A stretch of DNA of 64,000 nucleotides from an uncultured Bacteroidota bacterium (GTDB lineage Bacteria > Bacteroidota > Bacteroidia > Flavobacteriales > Flavobacteriaceae): assembly GCA_902515405.1 (NCBI GenBank), contig CABXUS010000005.1, positions 1 through 64,000 on the forward strand, in the 5' to 3' direction. How positions within the stretch are numbered: the first letter of the stretch is position 1; each line of letters begins with the position of its first letter. Shown here in pieces: positions 4,903-38,255 of this stretch. Made by a program: the position numbers and the translations under genes. The notes beneath the pieces were generated by a model, which did not search any database, was not told the DNA's origin, and was given only the letters and a program-made list of their open reading frames with translations.

Positions 4903-7785
4903 TTACGGATTTAAAGTAAATGTAACATAATACTGACTTCCAATCATTCCAGAACCCGGCATCATCACATAATCTTTACCAGAGATGTTTGTTGCTCCAA
5001 CTTTCACATTACCATTAAGCTCTGGTACTGCAAAATTCATTGCAGCATCAAATACCCAATTAGCTGGAATTTGACCAGACATAAATGTAGAGTCCCAATA
5101 ATAAGAGTCTTGATATCTAGCTGATACATTGAATGCGAAATCATCACTAATTTCTGTTGAACCAAAACTAAACTTGGTTCTTATTTTTGGTGTATTAAAG
5201 AAAGTATCAAAGTTTGGGTCAATGTTAGATCTATCCATTTCATTGTAACTAAATGTAGCTCCAAAATCAAATTTATCATTGATGACTTTAGATTCAAGCC
5301 CTATATTAACACCCATTGTAGTAACAACTTCTTCTGTATTGTTATCAACACTAAAAAGTCTAAAATCACTTACAATAGCACCAGCATATAAAGGAACTGC
5401 AACCTGCTTAGAGGCAATAAAATTATTGAATTTGCTCCAGTGAGCAGCTATATCAATTGAAACTTTTTTACCGTTAAGTCTATATCCTAATTCTCTTGAA
5501 ATTACATGTTGTGGCTCAACAGGATCAAGGCTTGCAGGTGTCAGTATACCATTAAGAAAGTCTTGAGCAACAAATCCACCATTCATAACCATATCTCCAG
5601 TTACAGTGTATTGACTAATGAAATCTGAACCTGTAAATGACATTTTAAATCTATCAATACTGTCAGGAGAAGATCCCATAAGTACACCAGATCCAACATC
5701 CAAACCAATATACATGTCTTGAGTTGAGGGGTTCATAAATCCTGTTTGATAAGAAAGTCTGAAGTTTTGATTTTGAGATAAAGCAATTACAGCACCTAAT
5801 CTTGGAGTGAATGTTCCATCAAAATATTGACTTTTATCATACCTCATAGAACCTGTTAATTTAACAGCACCATCAAATAAATCTCTTTGAACTTGGGTAT
5901 AAACACCAAGTTGTGAAAACTCTATTGGTTCATCATAGTCCGTAAATAATGATCCTCCTGAATTAAGTACATATTGTCTTGCCTGAGCACCAATTTGAAA
6001 ATCGAATCCATTAACTAAATCTGACGCATTATAATTAACTTCAAAATTATTGCTCTTAGAATTATCTTTGATTGCAGCACCACCACCAGAAATTGGAGTT
6101 GTTGTTGCATTATAATAAGCTGTTTTAAAAGCATCACTTCCAGGCACTAACATGTTTTGATCAGCTTGAGATCTTGCAAATGCGTGCGCCCTGTAGTTCA
6201 TCGTTGGTGTAACAAAACTATCGTACATATCTGTATCACCTAAATACAGGATACCTCCCAGCATTTGATTAACAGCAACTAATGGGTTTGGGTTAACTTG
6301 TCCAAATAAATTCAAGAAATAATTTTGTAAATAAATTCCAGCCCATCCACCTAGAATACCACCTGGCTGAGCATTAGCAATTCTACCACCTAATGCAGTT
6401 AAATCATGGGTATTACCAGAATCTTCTATACTTGTATATGCTCTTAAACTAAGATTTTTAGTTTTATATTCAAGTCTATGTTGTTGAATAATAAAGTTTT
6501 TAAGCATATTTCTATTTGTTGCATGATACATTGTATTACCTAAACCAATCTTTGAATTATAAATTAATTCAGAGTTTCCATTGAATCTATAGTGTACAGC
6601 AATATCACCTTTAAAACTTGAGGCTATGCCATCAGTTAGGTCTAATTCTGAATATCCAGTTGTTTGAAGTAATTGATCTCCAAAGAATGCCGGGGCATAA
6701 GCACCCACTAAACCAGAAACTTGAGCTGCCTGCGCAGCACCTATTAAGTTTAACTGAACAAGACCAGGTACAACCAATGATGTAAATGTATCAGTTAAAT
6801 CTAAATTAGCTGCTTGGCTACCATAAACATTTACGCCAACATAATCAGGAAATGATGATGGCTCACCAAACTCCAGGGTTCCAGGAATATATCTTCCATA
6901 TTCATAATTTCTATCACTTAGGTCATTTGCACCCCAATCAATACCCTCAGTATAACTAATATTTGCTTTAACAGCAATTTTATCGGAAAATGCTTTAGCA
7001 AAACGAACTCCTAAGTCGTAATAATGATTATCTCCAGAAACATCCTGTGATGTTACACCATTTGTTAAATATGCGCTTGTTCCTTCAAAATCAAAAGGGT
7101 TTTTAGTGTACATTAAAAGAATACCTTTAAAAGCATTTGCACCATATAAAGCAGATGCAGCACCTGGAAGTAACTCTACAGATTGAAGGTCTAATACACT
7201 AGCTCCAACCAAGTTACCAGCTGCAAAACTCAATCCGGGAGCTTCATTATCCATTCCATCAATCAGTTGAACAAAACCTGTATTATCAATCGTTGAGAAA
7301 CCTCTTACGCTTATTGTTTGTAAGAGTAACCCTCCACTATTAATTTGAACACCTTTTAATCCGCCTAAGCTAGAATAAAAGTCAGCGCCTGTTGATTGAG
7401 CTATATCTTTATAGTCAAACCTTTCAATAGTAACTGGTGAATCAAATAATCTTTGTGGGACCCTAGATGCAGATATAACCACATCATCTAAAAGGTTTTC
7501 AGATTCTTTAAGCACTACCAATAGAACTAAATCACCTGATACAACTGAAACAGTCTCTGTTTGAAAGCCAATACTTGAAACTGAAAGTGAAAAAGGCGGG
7601 GTTTGATTTAATGTTAATGAAAAATCACCGTCGAAGTTAGCAACAGCTCCAGTTGATGAATCGAAAACAATATTAGCTCCAGGAATCGGATTATTATCTT
7701 CATCGACAACAGTTCCTGAAATATTAGTTTGTGCGGATATGACAGTACTTATTAATACTGCCATCATGGACAAAATTCTTTTCAT
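4903..7785 (-). CDS. TonB-dependent receptor with carboxypeptidase-like N-terminal domain
   Basis: A 960-residue outer-membrane receptor. A signal peptide (1-18, ending ISAQ) precedes a CarboxypepD_reg-like beta domain at about 20-95 (ISGTVVDEDNNPIPGANI), typical of Bacteroidota. A plug domain follows at about 105-225 (SVRGFSTIDNTGFVQLIDGMDN, shown as two motifs in the protein), then the barrel, ending in aromatic/TLNP residues. No TonB box partner such as SusD is encoded beside it, so it is not a classical SusCD system. The gene stands alone between a strong terminator and a barrel-protein gene. Its codon use is less AT-extreme than that of the glycan locus, consistent with good expression. 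Substrate unknown; in marine flavobacteria such single receptors may serve peptides or lipids, which is only inference. Confidence 0.88.
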   Translation of the reverse strand: MKRILSMMAVLISTVISAQTNISGTVVDEDNNPIPGANIVFDSSTGAVANFDGDFSLTLNQTPPFSLSVSSIGFQTETVSVVSGDLVLLVVLKESENLLDDVVISASRVPQRLFDSPVTIERFDYKDIAQSTGADFYSSLGGLKGVQINSGGLLLQTISVRGFSTIDNTGFVQLIDGMDNEAPGLSFAAGNLVGASVLDLQSVELLPGAASALYGANAFKGILLMYTKNPFDFEGTSAYLTNGVTSQDVSGDNHYYDLGVRFAKAFSDKIAVKANISYTEGIDWGANDLSDRNYEYGRYIPGTLEFGEPSSFPDYVGVNVYGSQAANLDLTDTFTSLVVPGLVQLNLIGAAQAAQVSGLVGAYAPAFFGDQLLQTTGYSELDLTDGIASSFKGDIAVHYRFNGNSELIYNSKIGLGNTMYHATNRNMLKNFIIQQHRLEYKTKNLSLRAYTSIEDSGNTHDLTALGGRIANAQPGGILGGWAGIYLQNYFLNLFGQVNPNPLVAVNQMLGGILYLGDTDMYDSFVTPTMNYRAHAFARSQADQNMLVPGSDAFKTAYYNATTTPISGGGAAIKDNSKSNNFEVNYNASDLVNGFDFQIGAQARQYVLNSGGSLFTDYDEPIEFSQLGVYTQVQRDLFDGAVKLTGSMRYDKSQYFDGTFTPRLGAVIALSQNQNFRLSYQTGFMNPSTQDMYIGLDVGSGVLMGSSPDSIDRFKMSFTGSDFISQYTVTGDMVMNGGFVAQDFLNGILTPASLDPVEPQHVISRELGYRLNGKKVSIDIAAHWSKFNNFIASKQVAVPLYAGAIVSDFRLFSVDNNTEEVVTTMGVNIGLESKVINDKFDFGATFSYNEMDRSNIDPNFDTFFNTPKIRTKFSFGSTEISDDFAFNVSARYQDSYYWDSTFMSGQIPANWVFDAAMNFAVPELNGNVKVGATNISGKDYVMMPGSGMIGSQYYVTFTLNP

Positions 7786-13621: not shown

Positions 13622-14059
13622 TTGAAATTAAATGCATTTTTAAAACATAGTGAATACTCATCTGTTAAGTTACAGAGATTAAAAACTAATCACATACAAA
13701 TTGAAGCTAAAATTAATGGAGTTAAGGGAGTTTTTATCCTTGATACTGGAGCTTCAAATTCATGCGTAGATATAAAACTTGGAGGTTTTTTTAAAATACA
13801 ATCCAGTGAAAGTTCTGAAAAGGCATCCAGTGCAACATCTGAAATCTCTAATACATTAATATCAAAAAATAACAATATAAAAATTGGAAAATGGAATAAT
13901 AAAAAGTTTCAAATAGTATTATTTGATATGTCTTATATTAATAAAACATTAATAGAGCAAGGTTCAGAAAATGTTTCTGGTATTATTGGATCTGACTTAT
14001 TAAAAAAGGGAAAAGGAATAATAGACTATTCCAGTAATAGGTTGTTTTTAAAAAATTAA
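13622..14059 (+). CDS. Retropepsin-like aspartic protease (clan AA)
   Basis: Single-lobe aspartic protease of 145 residues. The active-site motif [13 protein letters not shown] carries the catalytic Asp, and the C-terminal part has [16 protein letters not shown], the psi-loop and final strand of retropepsins. One Asp per chain means it must dimerise to be active. I chose the TTG start at 13622 because the sequence from there fits the family's usual N-terminus. The ATG at 13559 would overlap the start of divergent tatD. No signal peptide or membrane helix is seen, so it is probably cytoplasmic. Its 3' end overlaps convergent sucB by 4 nt. Substrate unknown. Confidence 0.8.
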
Positions 14060-15273
14060 ATTTCTAATGACTTTTTGATATCATTATCCATAAGGCCTTC
14101 AGTAGGATTTTCCAACAATTCCTTTATTTTTAGTAGAAAGCCAACTGATTCCTTACCGTCAATTATTCTATGATCATAGCTTAGTGCAAGGTACATCATA
14201 GGATGAATTTCAACTTTTCCTTCAACTGCAATAGGTCTTTCAATTATATTATGCATTCCTAGTATAGCAGATTGAGGTGGATTTAAAATTGGGGTCGAGA
14301 GCATCGATCCAAAAACACCACCATTTGAAATGGTAAATGTTCCGCCAGACATATCCTCAACTGTAATTAATCCATCACGAGCCCGAATCGCAAGTCTTTT
14401 AATTTCTTTTTCAATTCCAGAAAAAGTAAGTTTTTGTGCATCCCTTACAACTGGAACCATTAATCCTTTTGGACCAGAAACTGCTATGCTTATATCATAA
14501 AAATCAAATTTTATTTGTTGATCACCATCAATCATAGAATGAACATCAGGAAAATCTTTTAAAGCACAAACAACTGCTTTAGAAAAAAAACTCATAAAGC
14601 CCAGGCTTACATCATGCCTTGATTTAAAAGTCTCTTTATATTTTTTTCTAATTTCAAAAATTGGAGTCATATTAACTTCGTTGAATGTAGTTAACATAGC
14701 TGTTTGATTTTTTACAGCTACTAATCTTTGTGAAACTTTTCTTCTTAGAAGTGACATTTTTGAAGATTCTACTTTTCTGTTTTTTGATATACTATCTACA
14801 TCAACTTTAGGTAAGGCTTTTAATGCATCCTCTTTTGAAATTCTTCCATTTTTACCAGACCCAATTACATCTTCAGATTTAATTCCTTTTTCATCCAAAA
14901 TTTTTCTAGCAGCTGGCGAAGGAGATCCTGAAGCAAAAGTTATGTCTTTTTCAATATTAACTAGAGTATCTTTTTTTGAATCCTTAACAATTTCAATTTT
15001 TGTGTTTTCTTCATTAGTCTTTTTTGATGTTTTTTTTCCGGATGTGTCTATTAAACAAACTATATTACCAACAAGTACTGTATCTCCTTCTTCAGCTTTA
15101 AGGGTTATTATTCCACTTTCTTGGGCAGGTAAATCTAATGTAGCTTTATCTGAATCTACTTCAGCAATCGTTTGATCCTTTTCTACATAATCTCCATCCT
15201 TAACAAGCCACTGTGCAATTTCAACTTCTGAAATTGATTCACCAGGGGATGGAACAGGCATCTCAACAATCAT
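14056..15273 (-). CDS. sucB: 2-oxoglutarate dehydrogenase E2, dihydrolipoyl succinyltransferase
   Basis: E2 core of the TCA-cycle 2-oxoglutarate dehydrogenase complex, 405 residues. An N-terminal lipoyl domain (1-76) carries the lipoylated Lys in [12 protein letters not shown] peripheral subunit-binding domain follows at about 115-150 ([22 protein letters not shown]). The catalytic acyltransferase domain (about 170-400) ends with the active-site motif [13 protein letters not shown]. It transfers succinyl from lipoate to CoA. It is the last gene of a run that starts with the E1 gene sucA 7 kb upstream; four unrelated genes lie between the two partners. Confidence 0.95.
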
Positions 15274-15314: not shown

Positions 15315-16388
15315 TTAATTTGAGATAGTTGCAGCATTAATTTCTTGATCACTTTTTAGTACAATAAATGATGATATTGCGTTGTAAGCATTTTTATTAT
15401 TATACCCTGGTGTTCCTAAAAAGTCATTTACCCATGGTTCAAAATAATATTCAAATTCTAAATTACTACTTGAAATATCACTATCAAATTTATCAATCCT
15501 AACAGGCACAATCATCCCAGGACACCAGCCTGCCCTATCAGGCGACCAATTACCACCTTGGTTTTTTATTGGATTAGAAGCACAACCAATTGGTCCCATA
15601 TAATGATTAAACTTATTAGTATTATTTATTTTTATTTTATGTGTTCTAAAACACCATTCTGCGCATGCCCTTCCATTACTGTCAGCAGGCGTAGCGTGAC
15701 CCCATCCAGAAATAATAGTTCTAAAATGAGCGCTTTTTATATTTGCTCCAATAGAAATAGATTTTTTTAAATCAAATTTTGTCTCATCAAGTTGTGTATT
15801 TCCATTTTCACCACCATATGGCACACCTCCTAATGAATTATTATTAAATTGGATAACTGGGCTTATTTGGTAATATTTATAGTCTGGGTTTCCATCCAAA
15901 AAATCAAACTCTAAAGAAATAACCCATCCACTAGCTACCCATGTTTCAGCAAATATTTTTAATTCAACATTTCCAGTAAGAATTGTTTTAAAATCAGTAA
16001 CATCAACTTCCAATCCTCTATCTAATACTGAATTTCCAACTCCATATGGTGTAATATGTCTAGCCATTTCAAACCACTGATTAGTGTCTTGATTTTTAAC
16101 AAGTATGTTTGCATAACGATCCCATGGGTCACATCCGCCAGATGGGCACTCTAACCTTACAAACATTTTAATTCTTTCAATATTGGAATTATCAGTATGA
16201 AGATCAAACTTTTTTGAGGCAGACTGGCTATATCCAGATCCCCAGGCTAATCTTTGTTTGCTAAAAGCAGGGTAATTATATATAAGCTGAATTCCCTCTT
16301 CAGGAATTACAACATCAGAGGAAGATTCATCAACTCCGCAACTTATTGTAATAAATAAAAAAATAAAAAATTTAAACTTTAAATCCAT
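15315..16388 (-). CDS. PNGase F, peptide-N-glycosidase lipoprotein
   Basis: Peptide-N4-(N-acetylglucosaminyl)asparagine amidase F, which removes whole N-linked glycans from glycoproteins. Residues 1-17 form a lipoprotein signal (ITISC, Cys17), so the enzyme is probably anchored in the outer membrane. The rest matches the Elizabethkingia enzyme over its two jelly-roll domains: WDRYAN (Asp90), ITPYGVGN, RGLEVDVTDFK, AETW (Glu148), ISGWGHATP, CAEWCFRTH (Glu244), and DRAGWCPGM. Asp90 and Glu148 are 58 apart, the spacing of catalytic Asp60 and Glu118 in the known enzyme; Glu244 corresponds to Glu206. Length 357 is normal. It overlaps the upstream methyltransferase gene by 10 nt. Likely role: deglycosylating algal or other eukaryotic glycoproteins. 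Confidence 0.93.
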   Translation of the reverse strand: MDLKFKFFIFLFITISCGVDESSSDVVIPEEGIQLIYNYPAFSKQRLAWGSGYSQSASKKFDLHTDNSNIERIKMFVRLECPSGGCDPWDRYANILVKNQDTNQWFEMARHITPYGVGNSVLDRGLEVDVTDFKTILTGNVELKIFAETWVASGWVISLEFDFLDGNPDYKYYQISPVIQFNNNSLGGVPYGGENGNTQLDETKFDLKKSISIGANIKSAHFRTIISGWGHATPADSNGRACAEWCFRTHKIKINNTNKFNHYMGPIGCASNPIKNQGGNWSPDRAGWCPGMIVPVRIDKFDSDISSSNLEFEYYFEPWVNDFLGTPGYNNKNAYNAISSFIVLKSDQEINAATISN

Positions 16389-16834
16389 CTATCTACTTTT
16401 TTACAATAGTTTTCAAAATTTTCGCCAAATTTTTTTCTCATTTCATATTCTTCAGGCTCAATTTGAAATTTATTTATATAAAATATAAAAGAGGGTATAA
16501 TAATACAACCTATTAAGCTTAATTTATAAAATGTAAAAGAAATAATTAAAAATAACATTCCTAGATACATTGGGTTTCTAGTAATTCTATAAATACCAGT
16601 AATTACTAATGAAGAAGTCTTGGATGGTTTAGTTGGGTCTACTGTAGTCTTAGTTTTTGCAAACTTAAACAGTGCAAAAGCAATTATTATTAAACCAATT
16701 ACTAAAAATAGTATTGAAATATAAGTATTCCAATCTTCAAAAAAATTAAATTCTCTTTCAAAAAAATATATAATTAAAATACATAACAGTGTTATTATTG
16801 GGGGAGGTACTTTTGTTTCTAGATTTAGTTTCAT
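16379..16834 (-). CDS. Isoprenylcysteine carboxyl methyltransferase-like membrane protein
   Basis: A 151-residue integral membrane protein with about four helices. The motif GIYRITRNPMYLGMLFLIISF near residue 79-99 and the C-terminal EPEEYEMRKKFGENFENYCKKV are the conserved core of the ICMT/PEMT family, which binds S-adenosylmethionine at the membrane. Bacterial members methylate lipids or small hydrophobic molecules; the substrate is unknown. It sits 14 nt after ahcY and two genes after metK, so a SAM-using enzyme, the SAM synthetase and the SAH hydrolase appear in one run. That link is suggestive only. Confidence 0.82.
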   Translation of the reverse strand: MKLNLETKVPPPIITLLCILIIYFFEREFNFFEDWNTYISILFLVIGLIIIAFALFKFAKTKTTVDPTKPSKTSSLVITGIYRITRNPMYLGMLFLIISFTFYKLSLIGCIIIPSFIFYINKFQIEPEEYEMRKKFGENFENYCKKVDRWI

Positions 16835-16848: not shown

Positions 16849-18162
16849 TTAATATCTATAATAATTTGGTTTAAATGGTCCTTCTATTTTTACTCCAATA
16901 TAACTTGCTTGTTCGTCAGATAATTCATCAAGTTCAACTCCTAATTTATTAAGATGAAGTTTTGCAACCTTTTCATCCAAATGTTTAGGCAACATATAGA
17001 CTTCATTTTTATAATTTTTACTGTTAAACCATAATTCAATTTGAGCTAAAACTTGGTTAGTAAAAGAATTACTCATAACAAAACTAGGGTGACCAGTAGC
17101 ACATCCCAAATTTACAAGCCTTCCTTCCGCAAGAACAATTATTTCTTTGTTATCAAAACTGTAAAGATCAACTTGAGGCTTAATTTCAATTTTAGAACTT
17201 CCATAGTTTTTATTTAACCATGACATATCAATTTCATTATCAAAATGACCAATATTGCAAACAATGGTTTTATCCTTCATTAATCTAAAATGTTTTTCCT
17301 TGATAATGTCTTTGTTCCCTGTTGCAGTAACAACAATATCAGCATTTGAAATTATACTTTTCATTCTTTTTACCTCAAATCCATCCATTGCAGCTTGCAA
17401 AGCACAAATAGGATCAATTTCACAAACAGTGACAATTGCACCAGCTCCAGAGAAAGATGCTACAGTTCCTTTACCCACATCTCCGTATCCAGCTACAACA
17501 ACTCTTTTTCCGGCTATCATAATATCGGTAGCTCTTCTAATTGCATCAACAGCACTTTCTTTACATCCATATTTATTATCAAATTTAGATTTAGTTACAG
17601 AATCATTTATATTAATTGCTGGGATAGGCAGTGTTCCTTTTTTCATTCTTTCATAAAGCCTATGAACACCTGTTGTTGTCTCCTCAGACAAGCCCTTAAT
17701 ATTATTAACTAATTCAGGATATTTATCTAGAACTAAATTTGTTAAATCTCCTCCATCATCCAAAATCATATTTAAGGGGTTTTTATTCTCTCCAAAAAAT
17801 AAGGTTTGTTCAATACACCAATTAAATTCATCTTCATTCATACCTTTCCAAGCATAAACAGAAATACCTGATGCTGCTATTGCTGCTGCTGCATGATCCT
17901 GAGTTGAAAAAATATTACAAGAACTCCATGTAACATCAGCTCCTAATTCTACTAAAGTTTCTATTAATACTGCGGTTTGAATAGTCATATGTAAACAACC
18001 CGCTATTCTAGCTCCACTTAAAGGTTTTTTGCCCTTATACTCATCTCTTAATGACATAAGACCAGGCATTTCAGCTTCTGCAAGATTTATTTCTTTTCTA
18101 CCCCACTCAGCAAGAGAGATATCCTTTACTTTATATTTTAAATAACGCTTTTTATTACTCAT
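16849..18162 (-). CDS. ahcY: Adenosylhomocysteinase (SAH hydrolase)
   Basis: Reversibly cleaves S-adenosylhomocysteine to adenosine and homocysteine, relieving product inhibition of methyltransferases. The 437-residue protein has [17 protein letters not shown] in the substrate domain, the NAD-binding [16 protein letters not shown] near 222-237, [12 protein letters not shown], and the C-terminal KPNYYRY that reaches into the neighbouring subunit's NAD site. Length and motifs are canonical. It follows metK by 4 nt, joining SAM synthesis to SAH removal in one transcript. Confidence 0.97.
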
Positions 18163-18166: not shown

Positions 18167-19417
18167 TTATAATTTAAAATTTTTAATTATTTCTTGAACA
18201 AAATCTAATTTTTCCCATGTAAAAAGTTCAACTTCTATTGTTTTTATTTTACCAGAAACTGACTTAAATGTCTTATTAACTATTTTGTTTTTTCTTCCCA
18301 TATGTCCATATGCAGCTGTTTCAAAATAAATAGGGTTTCTTAATTTTAACCTTTTTTCAATATGGTATGGTCTCATATCAAATATTTCTTCAATTTTTTT
18401 TGAAATTTCACTATCAGATAAATTAATTTTTGAAGTACCAAAAGTATTAACAAAAATAGCTGTTGGTTTTGCAACTCCGATTGCATAGCTTACTTGAACC
18501 ATACATTCGTCCGCAACACCCGCAGCAACTAGATTTTTTGCTATATGCCTGGTTGCATAAGCAGCACTTCTGTCTACTTTACTAGGATCTTTACCTGAAA
18601 ATGCTCCACCACCATGTGCGCCTTTCCCACCATAAGTATCTACAATTATTTTTCTTCCAGTTAAGCCAGTATCCCCATGAGGACCACCAATAACAAATTT
18701 CCCTGTAGGGTTAATATGATATTGTATTTGTTTGTTGAAATACTGCTTATATTTTGGATATTTTTTTATTATTCTTGGAATTAATATAGATATTAAATCC
18801 GATTTTATCTTCGATAACATCAAATCTTCTTTATCAAAATCATCATGTTGTGTTGAAATTACTATTGAAACTATTTTTTCTGGTTTATTATCCTTTGAAT
18901 ACTGAATAGTAACTTGAGATTTTGAATCAGGCCTAAGATATTTAATATCTTTTTTTTCTCTTCTTAATTCCGCTAATTCTATAAGTAATTTATGAGACAA
19001 ATCTAAGGTCAAAGGCATAAAATCTTCTGTTTCATTACAAGCATATCCAAACATGATACCTTGATCGCCAGCCCCTTGATCTTCAATGATTTTTTTTTCA
19101 ACTCCTTGGCTAATATCAGGAGATTGTTTGTGAATATATGATAATATTCCACATGAATTACCATCAAATAAATATTCACTTTTATCATATCCAATCTTAT
19201 TAATCACCTCTCTTGCAATTGATTGAATATTTAAATAAACTTTTGAATTGACTTCACCAGCCAAAATAACTTGTCCAGTAGTAACCAGAGTCTCACAAGC
19301 TACTTTAGAATTTTTATCAAAAGCTAAAAAATTGTCAATTAATGCATCACTAATTTGATCCGCAATCTTATCGGGATGTCCCTCACTAACTGACTCTGAA
19401 GTAAATAAATAACTCAT
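18167..19417 (-). CDS. metK: S-adenosylmethionine synthetase
   Basis: Makes SAM from methionine and ATP in the cytoplasm. The 416 residues show [21 protein letters not shown] at the N-terminus, [12 protein letters not shown] near 113-124, the P-loop-like [18 protein letters not shown] and [13 protein letters not shown]. It is slightly longer than the E. coli enzyme (384), with extra residues in the middle ([12 protein letters not shown] onwards) as in other Bacteroidota. Its ATG overlaps the sucA stop (TAATG), so translation is probably coupled to the E1 gene. There is no SAM riboswitch because there is no leader. Confidence 0.97.
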
Positions 19418-22149
19418 TATTTCATGTTATTTTTTGACTTATCAAAAACATACTCAATAACTTCATTATGTCTTTTTTCAAATCTAGCTTTACTTCCTGA
19501 AGCTGGTGAACCATAAAATCTTCTTGATGCAACTCTAAAATTCTTCGCATCTTCAAAGTGCATAAGTAAATGACCCCAAGCGCCCATATTTCTAGGTTCT
19601 TCTTGTGCCCACACTATCTCATCATAGGAATAGCTTTCAATTATATTATTAATTTCTTTTACAGGTAATGGAAATAATTGCTCAATTCTAACAATAGCTA
19701 CATCTAAAATTTTATTTACTCTTTTAAAATGTAGAAGATCATAATAAAATTTACCACTACAAAAGACTAAAGATTTTATGTTTTTTTCTTTATCCTTATC
19801 ATCTATTACAGCTGAAAATTTACCATTAATTAGATCACTAGTTTTTGAAATTACTTTTGGATGCCTTAGTAAACTTTTTGGAGTTAATAACACAAGAGGT
19901 TTTCTAAATTTTGTTGAGAGCTGCCTTCTGAGAATATGAAATAAATTTGAGGGAGTTGTACAATTTGCAACATACATATTATCCTTAGCACATAATTGTA
20001 AATATCTCTCTAATCTTGCTGAAGAATGTTCAGCACCTTGCCCTTCATATCCGTGAGGCAACATTAAAATCAATCCATTTTGAAGTTTCCACTTATCTTC
20101 TGCCGAAGATAAATACTGGTCAATCATGATTTGAGCTCCATTGCTAAAATCTCCAAATTGTGCTTCCCATATTGTTAAAGTATTTGGAGCTGCCAATGCA
20201 TATCCATACTCAAAACCCATAACCCCATACTCAGATAATGAAGAATTAAATATTTGAAATGAACCTTGATCTTTTTTAATATTATTTAATGGTATGTATT
20301 CCTTTTCTGTGTTTTCTGTTTTTAAAATAGCATGACGATGAGAAAACGTACCCCTTTCAACATCTTGGCCTGAAATCCTTATGTTATAATTCTCATTTAA
20401 CAAAGTTCCATATGCTAGAAGCTCAGCAATTGCCCAATCTATTTTATCTTGTTCAAAAAACATTTTATTTCTTTCATTCATCAAGCGAACAACTTTTTTT
20501 AGATATAACTCGGGGTTTTCAAGCTTAAAAATATTTTTTGCAACCTTATTAATATCTTGTTGATTTACAGATGTTAAAAAATTCTTAAGCATATCTTTTT
20601 TCTTAACCCTAGAAAGTCCTTTCCACTCATGTTTCATAAAAGGAGTTATAACAACATTTTTTTCCTTCTTAGAGTTTGAAAGGTCATCGTCTAAATCCTT
20701 ACCATAATCAATTTCTATTTTTTTAATTTCATTTTTATCAATAATTTTTTCTTTTAAAAGTTGGCTTGAATATATTTCTTTGACGGTTGGGTGACTTGAA
20801 ATAGATTTATATAATTTTGGTTGTGTAAATCGTGGTTCATCTCCTTCGTTATGACCATACTTCCTATAACCTAATAAATCAATAAAAACATCTCTTTCAT
20901 ATTTCATTCTATATTCTACAGCAAAATTAGCAGCGTGAACTACAGCTTCTACATCATCAGCATTTACATGAAGGATAGGACAAAGATTTGCTTTACCAAC
21001 ATCGGTACAATAAGTAGAAGATCTTGCATCTATATAATTTGTAGTAAAACCAATTTGATTATTTACAACAATATGTATAGTACCTGATGTTTTATATCCC
21101 TTTAATCTTTCCATTTGGATTACTTCATAAACTACCCCTTGTCCTGAAATTGCGGCATCACCATGTATTATTACTGGTAATACATTTTTGGGAATATCTT
21201 TATGATATTTATCTTGTTTTGCCCTAGAAATACCCTGAACTATTGGTCCAACAGATTCAAGGTGAGATGGGTTTGGGGCTAGATTCATATATACATTAAG
21301 TCCAGTGTCATACCTTATTTTAGAAGTCCATCCAAGATGATATTTTACATCCCCATCAAAAATTTGCTCTTCATAATCTTTTCCATCAAATTCATTGAAA
21401 ATTTCTTTTGCAGGTTTTCCAAAAATATTTGAAAGCGTATTAAGTCTTCCCCTATGTGCCATTCCAACTACAAATTCTTTCACACCCATAACAGCAGCAT
21501 TTTCAAAAATTGAATCTAAAGCGGGTATTAGACTTTCCCCACCCTCTAGAGAAAATCTCTTTTGACCAACATATTTTTTTTGTAAAAATTGCTCAAAACT
21601 AGTTGCTTGAACTAATTTTTTTAAAATATGTTTTTTTTGCGTATTTGAAAAATTAGGTCTATTGCTATTTTTATTAAGCCATTTCTGAATCCATTCAATT
21701 CTTTCAGGTGTTCTAATATACATGTACTCAGTTCCAATAGAATCACAATAAATTCTTTCAAGATGAATTAAAATATTGGAAAGTGAGGTATTTCCAATAC
21801 CAATTATTTCACCAGCATTAAATTTTAATTCTAAATCATCTTTTGAAAGTTCAAAGTTTTCTAAATCAAGAGTAGGAACATATTTTCTTCTTTCTCTTAC
21901 AGGGTTTGTTTTGGTAAATAAATGACCACGAGTTCGATATGCATTTATAAGTTTAATAACCTTAAATTCTTTTAAAATATTTTCTGGTATTTGATTTTCT
22001 TTTTCGGAAGCTTTATCGATTCCAAATTCAAAACCTTGAAAAAATGCACGCCAAGTTGGCTCAACTGAATCTGGATTAATTAGATATTTATCGTATAATT
22101 CAGCAAAATAAGCTGTATGAGCAGTATTTAAAAATGAATAGGGATCCAT
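19417..22149 (-). CDS. sucA: 2-oxoglutarate dehydrogenase E1 component
   Basis: Thiamine-diphosphate E1 subunit that decarboxylates 2-oxoglutarate and succinylates the E2 lipoate. The 910 residues contain the N-terminal recruiting helix ([17 protein letters not shown]), AHRGRLNTL near 232, [13 protein letters not shown], the C-terminal transketolase-like segment ([29 protein letters not shown]) and [12 protein letters not shown]. Length is typical. It opens a same-strand run that ends with its partner sucB. The 59-nt gap upstream has no clear promoter box. Confidence 0.97.
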
Positions 22150-24547: not shown

Positions 24548-25315
24548 TTATTTGGTTTTAAAAATAGATCTAAAGGCATAAAAACAAAAACAAAAACAAG
24601 ATTTTAAAAGACTTAAGTGTTCAATATTTCTGTAAATAAACCATTGTCTTAGTGCTTTTTTTATTTTATTTCTAGAAATTGAATTTGGTGTGATTCTATA
24701 TTTAGTAAGAGGTAATGAAATTACATGAGCTTTCTCATCAGTGTTCTTTAATAATTTTAACCAAAATGCGTAATCTTGGCCTGTTCTGATAGATGGAATA
24801 TTCATTAGACCATTAAATTTTGATTTATTTAACATTACTGTGGAACAACCAAGAGTTGCTTTTTTTAAAAGCATATCTTCATAAGAAAAAGCACCCTTCT
24901 GCGAAGTGTCAACACTTTTACCTGTAAAATTTCCATTTTTATCTATTATATCATATCCTGAAAAACTAAAAGCAATTTTATTACTTTTCATGAAAAACAA
25001 TTGTTTTTCAAGTTTTTCTTTAACCCAAATATCGTCACTATCTAGAAAAGCTAAATAGGTATACTTACTCTCTATAATAGCAGTATTTCGTGTAAATGCG
25101 GCACCTTTATTTTCTGTGTTTTTTATTAATTTTATTCTACTATCTAAAGAAATAAAAGATTCTATAATACTTGCTGTGTTATCATATGAAAAATCGTCTA
25201 CTAAAATTAATTCCCACTTTTCATAGGTTTGATTTAAAACAGATTGAATAGTTTCTTCAATATATTCCGCAGAATTATAAGAAGGTGTAATAATTGATAT
25301 GTAATCATTTTTCAT
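24548..25315 (-). CDS. Family 2 glycosyltransferase
   Basis: A 255-residue GT-A transferase. IITPSYNSAEYIEETIQSVL at residues 8-27, VDDFSYDNT near 41 and the DSDD metal-binding motif (LAFLDSDDIW, near 88-97) are clear. It would add one sugar to the lipid-linked repeat unit at the cytoplasmic membrane face. It is the last gene of the left glycan cluster. The C-terminal hydrophobic, Cys-rich stretch (SCFCFCFYAFRSIF) may touch the membrane. Donor and acceptor are unknown. Confidence 0.9.
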   Translation of the reverse strand: MKNDYISIITPSYNSAEYIEETIQSVLNQTYEKWELILVDDFSYDNTASIIESFISLDSRIKLIKNTENKGAAFTRNTAIIESKYTYLAFLDSDDIWVKEKLEKQLFFMKSNKIAFSFSGYDIIDKNGNFTGKSVDTSQKGAFSYEDMLLKKATLGCSTVMLNKSKFNGLMNIPSIRTGQDYAFWLKLLKNTDEKAHVISLPLTKYRITPNSISRNKIKKALRQWFIYRNIEHLSLLKSCFCFCFYAFRSIFKTK

Positions 25316-25382
25316 TAATTATAGATTTTTTAGGACTCAATGTTGAATTTAATAAATAATTAAATCTTTGTAAGATATAACT

Positions 25383-26168
25383 TTATACTACTTTAAGAAT
25401 ATCCTTATTTGAGTAAAAACCTAATTTACTCATAAGGATTTTGGGAATAACAACTTCAGTTGAGCCATCTAGACAATGTGCTGCCCACCACGAAAAAGTA
25501 CTAGGAGCACAAAATAATTTTTTAGCAGACACTAAATGTTTAAAGTCATCTATTGCTGTTTCCGACTTTATTATCTTGGTATTTTTTATATCAATAAAAA
25601 AACTGGTTGCTTCTTCAACACTATCTGTAACAATTAAAATTTCACTTTTTTCGTGTCTTAAAAATTTCTTAATATCCGTATAATATCTTTCATATTTCAA
25701 TGCCCAAACTGAGTCTCCTCTCCTGTAATGAACAACTGTATAATCAGGAAAATACGAATATCTTGTTCTTAAGACTAGCCCTAAATCTAAAAGCTCTTTT
25801 TTATACTCTTTTAAAAAACTCTTATATTGAAAATAACTAAAGATATTTTTTGAACAATTGACTGAAAATTTATTTTTTGAGTTATAAAAAGCAACTCTTT
25901 TTAAATTTAATTTAAAGAATTTACTAAAGGCTAGTAAAAATAAATTAAATAGATCAGATAGAATTGAGTTTTTAAGAATAGATTCTTGATTAATTAAATC
26001 TAAATAAATAGGTTCATGAATTTTCCACTTTAGAAACTTTGTAATAATATTATTTTCTGTTAATGTAGTTTTAAACATAACCGATTCACCATTTTTAATC
26101 AAGATATTATAAGCCAATATTTGAAATAATGTGTTTCCAAAGCCTCCCATTAACCAAATTTTTTTCAT
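25383..26168 (-). CDS. GT11 alpha-1,2-fucosyltransferase-like enzyme
   Basis: A 261-residue glycosyltransferase of family GT11. It starts with MGGFGNTLFQILAY (GGfGN-lFQ motif). It carries the donor-binding HYRRGD at 147-152 and STFSWWAA at 223-230, which define bacterial alpha-1,2-fucosyltransferases. The donor is normally GDP-L-fucose. Because the nearby sugar genes point to GDP-colitose (3-deoxyfucose) instead, it may transfer colitose; that is inference. The gene is in one run with the polymerase, flippase and colitose-type genes. Confidence 0.85.
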   Translation of the reverse strand: MKKIWLMGGFGNTLFQILAYNILIKNGESVMFKTTLTENNIITKFLKWKIHEPIYLDLINQESILKNSILSDLFNLFLLAFSKFFKLNLKRVAFYNSKNKFSVNCSKNIFSYFQYKSFLKEYKKELLDLGLVLRTRYSYFPDYTVVHYRRGDSVWALKYERYYTDIKKFLRHEKSEILIVTDSVEEATSFFIDIKNTKIIKSETAIDDFKHLVSAKKLFCAPSTFSWWAAHCLDGSTEVVIPKILMSKLGFYSNKDILKVV

Positions 26169-26222
26169 TTTTTATAATTTTAAAAGTTATGTTTTAAGGT
26201 ATTATGATGATTAATATTTTGG

Positions 26223-27359
26223 TTATATTAAAATTAAAAGTAAAAATCTAGAATCAATGAGATCTCCACTAACCATAGAATTAAGAAATAGAAAAATTAG
26301 AAGTTGTTTTTCAAATAATTTAAGATTAGGATTATTTAACATATTATATATTTTTAATAGGAGAATATAAACAATGCCTAACCCAAAAATACCTAATTCT
26401 GAGATAAGTTCTAGAAATAAATTGTGTGGATACTCAGACATATAAAAATCATTTGATTCAATTATCTGTGTTGCAGGGACATAATTACCGAAACCAACTC
26501 CAAATGGGTTTTCTAAAAAAACTCTAATAGCCATTCTCCATCTTTCAATTCTGCCAATACTTGATGTTGCATCTAATAAATCAACCGAAAATATAGAAGA
26601 TAACCTTGGTCCTAATATTTCAATTATAATCTCAAAAGACACAATCGATAAGCAAAGTATTAAAATGCCAATTAAAAAAGTTTTAAAACTAAAATCTGAA
26701 ATATATTTATATAAAACAGATACTATTAAAAAAATAAATGGTCCTTTAGAACCAGCCTTAATAATCAACAATAAAGAAAAGATAGCAAGAATCCATTTGA
26801 GAATATTATTTTTTATAAAGTTAAAACATAAAATAAGGAATACACATATCCATCTTGAGAATACAATTGGCCCACCTCCAAGGATTGCCATACGCTCAGA
26901 ATCAATATTGAATTGAGATATACCAAAAATAAAGAATACTGAGCAAGCAAAAAATAAAGCATAATAAAAATTTTTGTCTAAACCATTTACATACTTATAA
27001 AAAACAATTGGCGCTAATACCAAAAATAAATACATTATTTTGTTAAACGAATAATTATCAGTTTCATTAAATCCGTAATGAATAAATAGTATTGAAGAAT
27101 ATATAGTTGTTACAATTAGCAACAAGAAAAAAAAAGAAAAATTTTTATTAATTTTTTTCTTGCTGAGGACATAAAAAAAAGCAAAAAATGTAGGAATAAG
27201 ATTTATAAATATTATAAAATTAAAGCCATAAATTGATAATCTTGAATCGTATATTCTTCCAACCATTATTAAGGAAATAATAGAAAATGCCCATATTAAA
27301 CTGAAAAAATTTTTGGTTAAGTATGAAGAGTTTGAGTAAGTTTTATTTAATCTATCCAA
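26223..27359 (-). CDS. O-antigen polymerase/ligase-like protein (first Wzy)
   Basis: A 378-residue membrane protein with about ten helices and a periplasmic loop, FGNYVPATQIIESNDFYMSEYPHNLFLELISELG (about 306-339), which carries the PHN(L/F) motif of O-antigen ligase/Wzy_C proteins. It probably polymerises or ligates repeat units on undecaprenyl diphosphate at the outer face of the inner membrane. It lies 11 nt after the flippase gene. The locus carries a second protein of the same kind at 45343-46728. Whether this copy is polymerase or ligase cannot be decided from sequence. Confidence 0.8.
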   Translation of the reverse strand: MDRLNKTYSNSSYLTKNFFSLIWAFSIISLIMVGRIYDSRLSIYGFNFIIFINLIPTFFAFFYVLSKKKINKNFSFFFLLLIVTTIYSSILFIHYGFNETDNYSFNKIMYLFLVLAPIVFYKYVNGLDKNFYYALFFACSVFFIFGISQFNIDSERMAILGGGPIVFSRWICVFLILCFNFIKNNILKWILAIFSLLLIIKAGSKGPFIFLIVSVLYKYISDFSFKTFLIGILILCLSIVSFEIIIEILGPRLSSIFSVDLLDATSSIGRIERWRMAIRVFLENPFGVGFGNYVPATQIIESNDFYMSEYPHNLFLELISELGIFGLGIVYILLLKIYNMLNNPNLKLFEKQLLIFLFLNSMVSGDLIDSRFLLLILI

Positions 27360-27369
27360 AATTATTGTT

Positions 27370-28470
27370 TCAATAATCTTTTACAAAATATAAAACCATG
27401 ATGAAATAATAAAATATAAAACTAAATATTAAAGGTATCGAGTCTAAGAACTTATAACTTAATTTATTAGCTAATTTGGCTTGAAACGATAAATCAAAAT
27501 AACCTAAAATTAGAATTGGGATTATTAGAAATAATGATAGTTTTAATGGGCCTTGAAGTTGGAATGTGTAATCATAAAAAAATACATTATTTGGAGTAAA
27601 CAGTATTAATATGAAAATTCCTATGAAGAAAATTGTTGAAAATAGCCAATATATTTTTTTCATTTTTTTACTTAATGTAAAAGTTTGAATTTGTTGTTTT
27701 ATTAATTGACTATTTAAATTTTTACTAAAAACAGTATAAAAAGTTAATACAATAAGCATTGAATAATTAATCAAAGCCATTTGATTTATAAAAAAAAGGG
27801 AGGAAAAAATTCTAATTATTAAAACAAAAAAAAGAACATTATTGACGGAAATAAATCTAGCAACGGATTTTTTTATAAAATCAGGTTTTAAACTATAGTT
27901 TAAAAACTTAATTTCGATATCTTTCCAAACAAAAAAAAGAATCAAAACTATATTAAAAATTATAGAAATTAACCTTGAATAAATTAAACCAATAACACCA
28001 TAATCAATTAAAACAAATGTTAAGACTAAATAAACTAGACCATTTAAAAATGCTACTATTAAAAATTCTTTTCTTTTATCTAAATAAATTAATATTGAAT
28101 ATAAAATTGAATTGATGATTAAAGGAATTGTAACAATTGATATTACAATCATTAAATGAATCTTATCATTCGAATCAAATAATATGTAGTTATAAAAAAA
28201 AAGAATTAAAGGTATAATTAGAATAGATATAATTATTTGAAAATTCAACTTAATTACTACACCTTTTTTTTCTAACCAAATTGGAAACGCTATAGAATTT
28301 ATAATGGAAGTATCGGAAAAAAAAATTAAAATACTTAATATAGCTATAAGTGAAAAATAAAAACTTATTTCATAAGAATAACCAAATTCAGAGAGTATTA
28401 GTAACTCTCTAATAATTCCAAATAGTTTTGCGAATATAGTCCCTAAAACTAAGTATTTAAATCCTCTCAA
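27370..28470 (-). CDS. Wzx-like flippase (first copy, short)
   Basis: A 366-residue very hydrophobic protein with about ten helices. Its N-terminus FKYLVLGTIFAKLFGIIRELLILSEFG resembles the MurJ/Wzx (MVF/MATE) superfamily start. Typical Wzx proteins have 12-14 helices in 400-480 residues, so this one is short and may lack the last helices, or may be a compact variant. It lies between colD-type and wzy genes, the usual place for the repeat-unit flippase. No frameshift is visible at the 3' end. Confidence 0.7.
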   Translation of the reverse strand: MRGFKYLVLGTIFAKLFGIIRELLILSEFGYSYEISFYFSLIAILSILIFFSDTSIINSIAFPIWLEKKGVVIKLNFQIIISILIIPLILFFYNYILFDSNDKIHLMIVISIVTIPLIINSILYSILIYLDKRKEFLIVAFLNGLVYLVLTFVLIDYGVIGLIYSRLISIIFNIVLILFFVWKDIEIKFLNYSLKPDFIKKSVARFISVNNVLFFVLIIRIFSSLFFINQMALINYSMLIVLTFYTVFSKNLNSQLIKQQIQTFTLSKKMKKIYWLFSTIFFIGIFILILFTPNNVFFYDYTFQLQGPLKLSLFLIIPILILGYFDLSFQAKLANKLSYKFLDSIPLIFSFIFYYFIMVLYFVKDY

Positions 28471-28514
28471 ATTTTTGATTGATTTTATTAGAGATTATTA
28501 TTTTTATAAAATTA

Positions 28515-29669
28515 TTAACCAATAATTCTTTTAAGATAATTAAGTTCTTTAGTTAAATCCGTGTGAGAATTTCCCACAAAAAGACCACTATCGTGAAGTT
28601 TATCTGCATTATCTAAATTATTATGTATTGAATAATTAAAATATTTCATAACTTGATTTCTAGTAAAGTTTCCAGTAACTATAGGTCTACAATCAATATT
28701 ATTATTGCCAAGTAATTTAATAATACTTTTTCTGCTTATTGATTTATCATTAATTATTAATGAAAAACCAAACCATGAGCTTTCACCTATTTCTTTTTGA
28801 ATTATAAATCGATCATCATTTTTAAATAATTTAATAAAAACTTGTGCGTTTTCTCTCCTCATATCAATGAAACTAGGAAGTTTTTTTAATTGTTCAATAC
28901 CTATAGCTCCAGACATTTCAAGTGGTCTTACATTATATCCAGGTAAAACAAAACGAAAGGATTCTTCAAACCACTCATCTGACTTATTTGAAACATGGTT
29001 TTTATCAGGTAAATTTCTTGTCCAACCATGCGCTCTTAGACATAATAATATGTGGTAGTATTCCTCATCATCAGTTAAAACCATACCACCTTCCATAGTT
29101 GCTATATGATGAGAAAAAAATGAACTAAATGTTCCCATCAGACCAAAAGTTCCAGTAAATTTCCCGTCTAATTTCGCCCCCATTGACTCACAATTATCTT
29201 CGATTATAACTATGTCTTTATCCTTAATTAAACCATTAATAATGTTAAAATCATTAGAATTCCCTAGAAGATTAACAACCATTATCCCTTTTGTTTTAGA
29301 ATTAATAGCACTTTCTAAATCAACTAAATTGTAATTAAGTGTATCAATATCAATATCTACGAATTTTAAATTTAAACCATATTGTTGGAGTGGAAAATAT
29401 GTAGTTGACCATGAAACTGCTGGAACGATAATTTCATCACCTAACTTTAGTTTAGGGTTTTTTGAAAAAAATAAAGATGCAACCATTAATAAATTTGCAG
29501 TAGAACCTGAACTACACATAACACCATATTTAGATCCAAAAAATGATGCAAACTGTTTTTCATATTCCTCAACTTTAGGACCCATTGAAAATTTATCTGT
29601 ATAAATAACTTCTTGAATAGCATTAATTTCTTCTTTACCCCACGTAGATGTTGCTAATTTATATTCCAT
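28515..29669 (-). CDS. colD: ColD-type GDP-4-keto-6-deoxymannose 3-dehydratase
   Basis: A 384-residue PLP enzyme of the DegT/DnrJ/EryC1/StrS fold. Instead of the catalytic Lys it has His: FFSHHIATMEGGMV puts His at 187-188. E. coli ColD (388 residues) uses His188 to remove the C-3 hydroxyl of GDP-4-keto-6-deoxymannose rather than to transfer an amino group. VPAVSWSTTYFPL, IEDNCESMGAKLDGKFTG and CLRAHGWTRNLPDKN are further family motifs. gmd, which makes its substrate, and a reductase gene precede it in one run with 1-11 nt overlaps. Product would be GDP-4-keto-3,6-dideoxymannose, the colitose precursor. Confidence 0.88.
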   Translation of the reverse strand: MEYKLATSTWGKEEINAIQEVIYTDKFSMGPKVEEYEKQFASFFGSKYGVMCSSGSTANLLMVASLFFSKNPKLKLGDEIIVPAVSWSTTYFPLQQYGLNLKFVDIDIDTLNYNLVDLESAINSKTKGIMVVNLLGNSNDFNIINGLIKDKDIVIIEDNCESMGAKLDGKFTGTFGLMGTFSSFFSHHIATMEGGMVLTDDEEYYHILLCLRAHGWTRNLPDKNHVSNKSDEWFEESFRFVLPGYNVRPLEMSGAIGIEQLKKLPSFIDMRRENAQVFIKLFKNDDRFIIQKEIGESSWFGFSLIINDKSISRKSIIKLLGNNNIDCRPIVTGNFTRNQVMKYFNYSIHNNLDNADKLHDSGLFVGNSHTDLTKELNYLKRIIG

Positions 29670-30579
29670 AATTCTCTAAATAATATTTATATGTTTTTGT
29701 TAATCCTTCCTTAAGAGTATGCTTCGGTTTCCATCCCATTTTAACTTGTTTTTTTATCGAACATTGTTTTCTTTTCATTCCAGATGGCTTAGTAAGATCA
29801 AAAACAAAATCGCCACTATAACCAACTATGGAAGAAATTTCGTTGTAATAGTCTAAAATTGAATAATCAATTCCAAGACCAACGTTTGTGTAATAGTCAA
29901 GAGAATTATAGTTATTTAAGCTATGATTAATAAAATCAGCTAAATCTTCGGCATACATAAATTCTCTTCTTGAAGTTCCATCTCCCCATATTTCAGCATT
30001 TTCTTCCCTTAGTTTAGCTAAATGAAGTTTTCTAATAACAGCAGGAATCATATGAGAATTTTCGGGATCAAATTTATCCCACATTCCGTAAAGATTACAT
30101 GGGATTATAGTCTTATAATCAAAATTAAACTCTTTTTTAGCATATTCACATAACTTTGCTACTGTGATTTTAGCAATTGCATATCCTTCATTAGTTGGCT
30201 CTAAAACTCCAGTCAAAATATCTTCTTCTTCTAGCTCTCTTTCAAAATCCTTAGGATACATACAAGAACTTCCTAAATTTATTAATTTCTTAATATTATC
30301 AGCAATTGCAGCTTCAATTACATTAGACCCCATTATTAAATTTCGGCTTAAAAAAGAATATGGATATTTTATATTAGCCTGAATACCACCAACTAAACCA
30401 GCACAATGGATGATAGCATCTGGTTTTTTTAATTTAAAATAATGTTTAACTGCAATGTTATCCAATAAATTTAAATCTGAGCTAGTTGGATAAAACAATT
30501 TATGATTAGTGTTTTTTTTTAAAAAGTGAACCAGGTTTTTTCCAACCATACCACTTCCTCCAGTAATTAATATTTTCAT
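29659..30579 (-). CDS. GDP-fucose synthase family reductase, probably ColC
   Basis: A 306-residue short-chain dehydrogenase. GGSGMVGKNLVHFL binds NADPH, SSCMYPKDFE holds the Ser, and EPTNEGYAIAK the Tyr-x3-Lys pair; NLYGMWDKFDPENSHMIP follows. This is the GDP-L-fucose synthase (Fcl) family, which epimerises and reduces GDP-4-keto-6-deoxymannose. Because the next gene encodes a ColD-type 3-dehydratase, the likely job is ColC: C-5 epimerisation and C-4 reduction giving GDP-L-colitose. Fcl activity giving GDP-L-fucose remains possible. It overlaps gmd by 1 nt and colD by 11 nt. Confidence 0.82.
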   Translation of the reverse strand: MKILITGGSGMVGKNLVHFLKKNTNHKLFYPTSSDLNLLDNIAVKHYFKLKKPDAIIHCAGLVGGIQANIKYPYSFLSRNLIMGSNVIEAAIADNIKKLINLGSSCMYPKDFERELEEEDILTGVLEPTNEGYAIAKITVAKLCEYAKKEFNFDYKTIIPCNLYGMWDKFDPENSHMIPAVIRKLHLAKLREENAEIWGDGTSRREFMYAEDLADFINHSLNNYNSLDYYTNVGLGIDYSILDYYNEISSIVGYSGDFVFDLTKPSGMKRKQCSIKKQVKMGWKPKHTLKEGLTKTYKYYLENYGI

Positions 30580-31694
30580 TATTCGAAATAATTATTGATT
30601 TTGAATCCACCTTCAAATAGATACTTGTCCTTAGTCATTAGTTTTAGGTCAGATTTCATCATATCATTTACTAATTCCTCCAATTCTATTTCAGGTATCC
30701 AACCTAATTTTTCTTTAGCCTTTGTAGCATCACCAATTAAGAGATCAACTTCTGTAGGACGGAAGTATTTTGGGTCAATGCTTAATACTTCCCTTCCAAT
30801 TTCTATTTGAAATTTTGGATTTGAACATAATTTTATTCTAGCTAGTTCATCCAGACCACTTCCCTCAAATTCCAATTCTACACCAATATGTTTGAACGCC
30901 ATTATTACAAAATCGCGAATAGTGGTAGTCCTTCCTGTAGCAATTACCCAATCTTCAGCTTTTTCGGCTTGAAGAATCATCCACATCATTCTTATGTGGT
31001 CCTTTGCATGACCCCAATCTCTTTTGGAATCAAGATTTCCTAAGTAGATTTTATCCTGAAGCCCTAGGGCAATTCTTGAAACTGCTCTTGTAATTTTTCT
31101 AGTTACAAATGTTTCACCTCGGATTGGAGATTCATGATTAAAAAGTATCCCATTTGAAGCAAAAATTCCATAAGCCTCTCTATAATTTACTGTAATCCAA
31201 TAGGCATACATTTTTGCGACGGCATAAGGAGATCTTGGATAAAAAGGGGTTGTCTCCTTTTGGGGGATTTCTTGAACTAGACCATATAACTCCGAGGTTG
31301 ATGCTTGATAGATCTTAGTCTTTTTCTCAAGTCCTAATAATCGAATAGCTTCGAGTAATCTCAAAGTTCCAATACCATCTACGTCAGCTACATACTCAGG
31401 CATATCAAATGAAACACGAACATGAGACATTGCAGCAAGATTATAAATCTCATCGGGTTGGATTTCCTTTATTAATCTTATAAGATTAGTACTATCTGTC
31501 ATGTCTCCATAATGGAGAATGAATTTTTGATCTTCAATATGTGGATCCTCATACAGGTGATCAATTCGATCAGTATTAAATAAGGAAGTTCTTCGTTTTA
31601 AACCATGAACGGTGTACCCCTTTTTTAGTAAAAATTCAGAAAGATAAGCTCCATCTTGACCTGTAACCCCTGTTATAAATGCTACTTTTTTCAT
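30579..31694 (-). CDS. gmd: GDP-mannose 4,6-dehydratase
   Basis: Converts GDP-D-mannose to GDP-4-keto-6-deoxy-D-mannose, the branch point for fucose, colitose and related sugars. The 371 residues contain [16 protein letters not shown] (NADP site), [15 protein letters not shown], the catalytic Thr/Glu region [31 protein letters not shown] (Tyr-x3-Lys) and [16 protein letters not shown]. It is canonical in length. It opens the gmd-colC-colD run, 12 nt downstream of ugd. It needs GDP-mannose, whose synthesis genes manB and manC are not in the window. Confidence 0.97.
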
Positions 31695-31706
31695 TTTAAA
31701 TATTTT

Positions 31707-33029: not shown

Positions 33030-33898
33030 TTATTTTTTTCTTTATTACCGACGGTAGTCATGTTAATTTTTTTTTTATAACTCACAGATCTTCCCTCTTT
33101 TAACTCCCAATCTTTCTCTGGTCTTACTTTTAGGTTCGTAGCCCAGCCACCCGCAACGGAATTTAATTCAATATTGTTTTTTTTAGAAAAAGATAAAAGT
33201 GCATTGACATCTTTAGGAAAACATGTTCCTCCATATCCAAGCTTTCCGTCATGCCCAGGAACATTTAAATGACTGTCACCTATTCTTCCATCAGAGACAA
33301 AACCTCTTAGCGCATCTTCCCAATTCGCTCCAATTTTATCACATAAGAGTCTAAACTCATTCATGATACTCACTTTTGTCGCAAAAAAAGTGTTGTTCAT
33401 GTATTTAGTAAGCTCAGCTGTTTTTGAATCCGTTTGAATTATATTTTTAATTTTAAATCTTTGATTAAATAAGGTTTTTGCTTTTTCAGTTAATTTGGAC
33501 TGCCCACCTAAAATAATTCTGGATTGAGTAAGCATGTCTAACTTCGCCGTTCTTTCAGTTAAAAATTCTGGAGAAAAAATAATTTTAAAGTTTGAGTATT
33601 TTTTAGATAATTTTTCTGTAGTTCCAGGTAAAACAGTAGATTTTAGTATATATACTGGCTTATTAGTTGCATTCTCAAAAGCATTTTCAACATATGACAA
33701 ATCTTGAGAACCATCCTTAAACATAGGGGTTGGGACGCAAATAAATACAAAATTACAATTATGTACAGACTGTAAATCATCCACAGTCTTCAAAGGATTT
33801 GTATCGTATACATAAATATGGGAAACTGAGGAAAAAGCAAATGAAATAGCTTCACCCACGAAACCATTTCCAATAATACCTACTTTATATTTTTTCAT
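33026..33898 (-). CDS. Short UDP-glucose dehydrogenase-like protein
   Basis: A 290-residue relative of nucleotide-sugar dehydrogenases. It has the NAD motif GIIGNGFVGEAISFAF, SPEFLTERTAKLDM, the dimerisation region LTKYMNNTFFATKVSIMNEF and the catalytic Cys in GYGGTCFPKDVNAL near 230-243. The C-terminal UDP-binding domain present in full-length enzymes (about 420-450 residues) is absent; instead a short basic tail follows. Such short forms occur in other marine bacteria and phages, so this need not be a broken gene. Activity without the C-terminal domain is uncertain. It is translationally coupled to ugd by a 4-nt overlap. Confidence 0.78.
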   Translation of the reverse strand: MKKYKVGIIGNGFVGEAISFAFSSVSHIYVYDTNPLKTVDDLQSVHNCNFVFICVPTPMFKDGSQDLSYVENAFENATNKPVYILKSTVLPGTTEKLSKKYSNFKIIFSPEFLTERTAKLDMLTQSRIILGGQSKLTEKAKTLFNQRFKIKNIIQTDSKTAELTKYMNNTFFATKVSIMNEFRLLCDKIGANWEDALRGFVSDGRIGDSHLNVPGHDGKLGYGGTCFPKDVNALLSFSKKNNIELNSVAGGWATNLKVRPEKDWELKEGRSVSYKKKINMTTVGNKEKNK

Positions 33899-38248: not shown

Positions 38249-38255
38249 ATGTTTA

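Follow-up and report, generated by a model that had tools for sequence, protein, structure and literature searches.

The known enzymes nearest to the protein reported here are PNGase F/EMTypeI of Elizabethkingia (structures 1PNF, 1PGS, and 3PMS), PNGase F-II together with the group 2 PNGases of Bacteroides (4R4X and 7ZGN), and the group 1 PNGases of Bacteroides (3KS7 and 4QHB). In PNGase F the residue Glu118 blocks core alpha-1,3-fucose, and type II PNGases have a Gly at position 118 and an N-terminal bowl-like domain (PMC9522356); Arg61 of PNGase F contributes to chitobiose binding (PMC12753239). According to a 2023 review, enzymes with specificity for the N-glycans of algae and protists still await discovery (PMC10154615), and our literature search found no paper on a PNGase in the flavobacterial group considered here.

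The window, by which we mean the whole 64,000-nucleotide stretch that was analysed, belongs to an assembly of 1.12 Mb in 48 contigs that is 72% complete. On its minus strand we found an open reading frame of 357 codons encoding a 357-residue, full-length PNGase F homolog (Table 1). A phmmer search against 1PNF gave an E-value of 4.3e-107, with residues 38–357 of the window protein covering the whole 1PNF chain at ~50% identity; this bears out the near end-to-end likeness to Elizabethkingia PNGase F proposed in a first-pass annotation of this DNA, which had given the exact coordinates of the frame without its strand. Chance similarity was ruled out by this E-value (4e-107). The profile check proposed in the same annotation came out in its favor, as both N-glycanase domains scored over their curated Pfam cut-offs (PF09112, 36.3 bits against a cut-off of 25; PF09113, 31.7 bits against 22.4); an NCBIfam search with the protein returned no match. 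An AlphaFold2 model built with 29 homologs (mean pLDDT 83) had the double jelly-roll fold, and Foldseek comparisons of this model to PNGase F structures gave TM-scores of 0.82–0.83 (query) and 0.94–0.95 (target) with an rmsd of ~2 Å (2.2). Comparing the catalytic part with those of sister species gave dN values of ~0.09–0.13 and dS values >1.2 (dN/dS <0.11), and the gene is under purifying selection; a pseudogene was ruled out by the open frame and this ratio. The window protein is a genuine type I PNGase F and a predicted lipoprotein, and it is probably active as an amidase. Membership in the PNGase F family (EC 3.5.1.52) makes it an already known kind of protein, and its context is one of insertion into an operon, enrichment in a genus, loss of a domain, and lack of the mannosidases searched for.

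Table 1. Features of the PNGase gene and its operon (window coordinates; residue numbers are those of the window protein unless PNGase F is named)
Feature	Coordinates	Strand	Basis or remark
sucA (2-oxoglutarate dehydrogenase E1), first of run	19417..22149	-	sequence, synteny
metK (S-adenosylmethionine synthetase)	18167..19417	-	sequence, synteny
sahH (adenosylhomocysteinase)	16849..18162	-	sequence, synteny
PEMT/isoprenylcysteine-type methyltransferase	16379..16834	-	Pfam PEMT; 10-base overlap with PNGase start
PNGase F-type amidase, predicted lipoprotein, 357 aa	15315..16388	-	ORF, Pfam, phmmer, model
Predicted signal peptide, residues 1-16, MDLKFKFFIFLFITIS	16341..16388	-	sequence, aligned with other precursors
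Lipobox Cys17, then GVDESSSD (LES-like acidic stretch)	16338..16340	-	C17 invariant, 29 sequences
Junction Glu30/Glu31, site of missing 101-residue Ig-like domain of sister proteins	16296..16301	-	alignments
Catalytic Asp90 (= Asp60 of PNGase F)	16119..16121	-	invariant in 82/82
Catalytic Glu148 (= Glu118 of PNGase F)	15945..15947	-	Glu 80/82, Asp 2/82
Catalytic Glu244 (= Glu206 of PNGase F)	15657..15659	-	invariant in 82/82
odhB/sucB (2-oxoglutarate dehydrogenase E2)	14056..15273	-	41 bases past PNGase stop; synteny, empty sites

We aligned 82 sequences: the 1PNF chain, whose numbering is used below, and 81 proteins from the genomes or the window. The three acids that the first-pass annotation had called conserved lined up with Asp60, Glu118, and Glu206 of 1PNF, and the Asp–Glu spacing of 58 it had pointed out is the same in 1PNF (Asp60/Glu118). 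Trp59, Trp120, Trp191, and Arg248 were invariant, as were the cysteines checked (51, 56, 204, 208, and 252), and Arg61 is retained in the window protein. With Elizabethkingia PNGase F/EMTypeI the window protein shares its fold, the length of its catalytic part, its catalytic acids, its checked cysteines, a lipobox Cys in the precursor, and the lack of an extra domain, while differing by eight inserted residues between its two jelly rolls, a few more residues near the C-terminus, a marine host, and a place in a sucA-odhB operon. PNGase F-II and the group 2 Bacteroides PNGases have the same superfamily fold (TMq 0.61–0.66); in contrast to these, the window protein has Glu118 instead of Gly and no bowl-like domain, with ~40 residues including the signal peptide preceding its catalytic part. 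We rejected assignment to the type II (EMTypeII, Bacteroides group 2) or plant-type PNGases, since Glu118 is kept and the bowl-like domain is absent. The group 1 Bacteroides PNGases share the fold and a predicted type I specificity, but are 14–15% identical to the window protein, with Asp at position 118 and an insert between the jelly rolls.

If the Asp60-, Glu118-, and Glu206-type residues work as they do in 1PNF, the enzyme would hydrolyse the GlcNAc–Asn bond of N-glycoproteins or glycopeptides, converting Asn to Asp. It should act on N-glycans of the high-mannose and complex types that lack core alpha-1,3-fucose, and those with core alpha-1,3-fucose should be resistant because Glu118 is kept (the bowl-like domain is also absent). 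The Man9-type N-glycans of diatoms would be a plausible, fitting substrate: they dominate the N-glycan profile of Phaeodactylum (PMC8678454), a profile that was itself made with PNGase F and could miss fucosylated forms. Double jelly-roll folds with other functions are known (PMC8812541), and the window protein might in principle have kept the PNGase F fold and lost N-glycan cleavage; every catalytic and substrate-binding residue checked is intact, however, including Arg61, and with purifying selection acting on the gene we regard such a loss as very improbable. In about one-third of the PNGase F relatives Arg61 is replaced by Val, Met, or Thr, often together with Asn in place of Asp57 (L031, L033, and L034 from genomes G017, G019, and G016; L032, L035, L044–L055, and others). 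These relatives keep the three catalytic acids, and their specificity may differ from that of PNGase F.

The solved PNGase F chains have 314 residues and the Elizabethkingia open reading frame is ~40 residues longer; the known enzyme was therefore recovered without its leader. One Elizabethkingia precursor from the public genomes (L090) reads MKKLL...AGIVSC followed by KGVDSAT, and a second (L092) is nearly identical; both have the lipobox Cys, and this column was invariant in 29 of 29 homologs from Flavobacteriaceae, Weeksellaceae, and Bacteroidales. While the first-pass annotation correctly placed a lipobox Cys at residue 17 of what is a predicted lipoprotein, its view that this separates the protein from a secreted known enzyme was contradicted by these precursors, and we discarded the lipobox as a distinguishing feature. 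Because the Elizabethkingia precursors and all aligned homologs share the Cys, predicted lipid anchoring looks like the norm of the PNGase F family. The window lipobox, T-I-S-C, is atypical and matches the classical L-x-x-C weakly. The lipoprotein export signal (LES) of Bacteroidota, made up of polar or acidic residues at +2 to +6, sends lipoproteins to the surface and has the consensus SDDFE in F. johnsoniae (PMC5080379); the stretch GVDES of the window protein, with acids at +4 and +5, is a weak instance of it compared to relatives of the CSSDDSS type. This weakness would suit a periplasmic enzyme acting on imported glycopeptides, and the gut Bacteroides PNGases are predicted to be periplasmic (PMC9522356). 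Against such a location, the Cys and acidic residues are kept across the family and resemble the flavobacterial export signal (PMC5080379); we consider the periplasm unlikely and infer that the window lipoprotein is exposed at the surface.

PNGases at the same locus in other species of the genus (L021–L030 and L095) are 66–85% identical to the window protein over the catalytic part but have ~100 extra residues past the lipobox. These congener proteins are ~460–470 residues long, and all have one Ig-like domain between the lipobox and the catalytic part (Pfam Cep192_D4 over the cut-off; NCBIfam choice-of-anchor D, under its cut-off); PNGase homologs of other genera have zero, one, or two such domains. 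Relative to its congeners, the window protein has a gap of exactly 101 residues between Glu30 and Glu31, corresponding to an in-frame deletion of 101 codons. In a catalytic-domain tree it was nested among the congeners (6-row clade, 100/99; 12-row clade, 100/100), and the Ig-like domain was therefore lost in the window lineage. Given that 11 of 11 same-locus congeners, and with them the nearest relatives (85% identity), have the domain, the short N-terminus could instead reflect a binning or assembly artefact behind which the real protein keeps it. Such an artefact seems quite unlikely to us, as the deletion is exactly in frame with collinear flanks and the remaining linker is similar to that of Elizabethkingia PNGase F, and we retain the reading of a domain loss.

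The PNGase gene is fifth in a run of six co-directional, tightly packed genes, sucA-metK-sahH-PEMT-PNGase-odhB (Table 1). The first-pass description of a gene standing alone therefore holds with respect to glycan genes and fails with respect to isolation. Eleven congener loci (L021–L030 and L095) have the PNGase between sucA and odhB; in one of them (L025) no further gene intervenes and the sucA-PNGase-odhB gaps are 6 and 1 bases. The empty site was seen in congeners G003 and G017 and in G026, from another genus, where sucA and odhB are adjacent and 12 bases apart. Because congeners and another genus show this uninterrupted junction, the parsimonious reading is that a single clade gained the PNGase by insertion into its ancestral sucA-odhB operon. 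In congener G019 a 345-residue methyltransferase-like open reading frame lies between sucA and odhB on the opposite strand (L125, 2929–3966), so this congener has a different insert at the junction.

Genomes of the genus are mostly single-cell and metagenome assemblies (AG-series isolates, MED-G60, MED-G118, and NAT254), and the isolate-name prefixes together with the company of marine flavobacteria suggest that the host is an open-ocean organism. We found the PNGase family in at least 15 of 23 congener species genomes, as against nine of 150 other Flavobacteriaceae genera represented by one genome each. The congener genomes are 55–87% complete (assemblies of 0.9–1.5 Mb), which makes single absences weak, and with such completeness 15 of 23, taken alone, looks near-universal. 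A simple core gene of the genus was nonetheless rejected, as G003 has an empty sucA-odhB site and the clade of G016, G017, and G019 has a diverged copy (~60% identity, with Asn57 and Val61), which in G017 and G019 is outside the sucA-odhB site. A search of genus-diverse genomes identified 92 relatives, and among the 80 kept nearly all were from Flavobacteriia.

Consistent with the earlier remark that no N-glycan exoglycosidase or SusCD genes are nearby, a search of the window's contig for SusD, GH92, GH20, GH18, GH130, and GH38 gave no match; the neighbors belong to central metabolism, and the related gene nearest to the PNGase is a TonB receptor without SusD (4906–7785). The contig thus shows no SusC/D and exoglycosidases beside the PNGase, the composition of an N-glycan polysaccharide utilization locus. 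Our glycosidase search covered GH92, GH38, GH130, GH18, and GH20. GH92 was found in one of the 23 congener genomes (G019), GH38 in none, and GH130 in none over the cut-off. A sub-clade of six PNGase-bearing genomes (loci L025–L030; G005, G007, G008, G009, G010, and G021), each 57–87% complete, had no GH18, GH20, GH92, or GH38 (0/6), and from the completeness values the chance that one family was present yet independently missed in all six is ~2 in 10,000. For the four families searched, these six-genome absences point to feeding on the protein more than on the glycan.

It could be argued that the N-glycan is harvested all the same, being imported by a distant SusC/D and cut by GH20 or GH18 enzymes of the same genome: SusD genes lie on two other contigs of the window genome (C2 and C8), which also encodes two GH18 proteins and has a GH20 next to the SusD on C2, and GH92 lies near the PNGase at four of 80 loci elsewhere. 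However, the C2 and C8 loci hold one and four sulfatases, respectively, and a GH43, which points to sulfated polysaccharide; the best solved relatives of the two GH18 proteins are chitinases; GH92, GH38, and GH130 were not found; and the PNGase-bearing sub-clade lacks GH18, GH20, and GH92. We therefore think glycan harvesting improbable and continue to favor protein use, with some GlcNAc use by the window genome possible given the two GH18 proteins and the GH20 beside SusD. A hidden N-glycan utilization locus elsewhere in the genome was likewise unsupported, since the SusD loci found come with sulfatases and GH92 was not found. These two loci, one with SusC/D, GH20, GH43, one sulfatase, an FGGY kinase, and a sodium symporter (L109, C2:66000–85900) and one with SusC/D and four sulfatases (L110, C8:14000–33900), probably serve the use of sulfated algal polysaccharides. 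Most of the 80 PNGase loci are without nearby glycan genes. The four with GH92 within ~8 kb (L044, L049, L060, and L073), which support the link of the family to N-glycans, are candidate marine N-glycan utilisation loci; their hosts are Hyunsoonleella, Seonamhaeicola, Polaribacter, and Flaviramulus, and two of them also have SusC-like genes.

Taking these lines together, the explanation we consider best, and likely to be right as a whole, is that of a deglycosylating lipoprotein with operon-linked expression that serves protein feeding. Its place inside the sucA-odhB operon would make expression steady and growth-linked, not glycan-induced. The most likely role would be to strip glycoproteins for digestion and uptake of their protein; the released glycan would be at best partly used because the needed mannosidases, among the families searched, were not found in the genus. 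Algae and other eukaryotes would be the source of substrate. A bolder version, which we put forward tentatively and with more doubt than confidence, is that in marine flavobacteria of one small-genome lineage a constitutive PNGase inserted in the 2-oxoglutarate dehydrogenase operon unmasks glycoproteins as amino-acid food and the intact N-glycan is discarded into the water, i.e., deglycosylation for protein and not for sugar. With a PNGase in at least 15 of 23 species genomes of a marine genus, mostly within an operon of housekeeping genes and with the matching mannosidases apparently missing, deglycosylation of glycoproteins would be commonplace among certain marine bacteria and might supply seawater with free N-glycans. 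New PNGase F variants from marine organisms can also be readily drawn from this genus.

Two further observations concern the window and the wider family. Positions 24548–35171 and 36047–52470 of the window form a surface polysaccharide biosynthesis region, with genes for a Wzy-type ligase, DegT aminotransferases, a GDP-mannose dehydratase, Wzi, UDP-glucose/GDP-mannose dehydrogenases, and an SLBB/Poly_export protein. In other families of the order there are distant PNGase-like proteins of 640–1185 residues (L017–L020 and further matches in G041–G059), one of which (L020) keeps a WD and a CCEW motif and has a C-terminal end resembling a type IX sorting domain.
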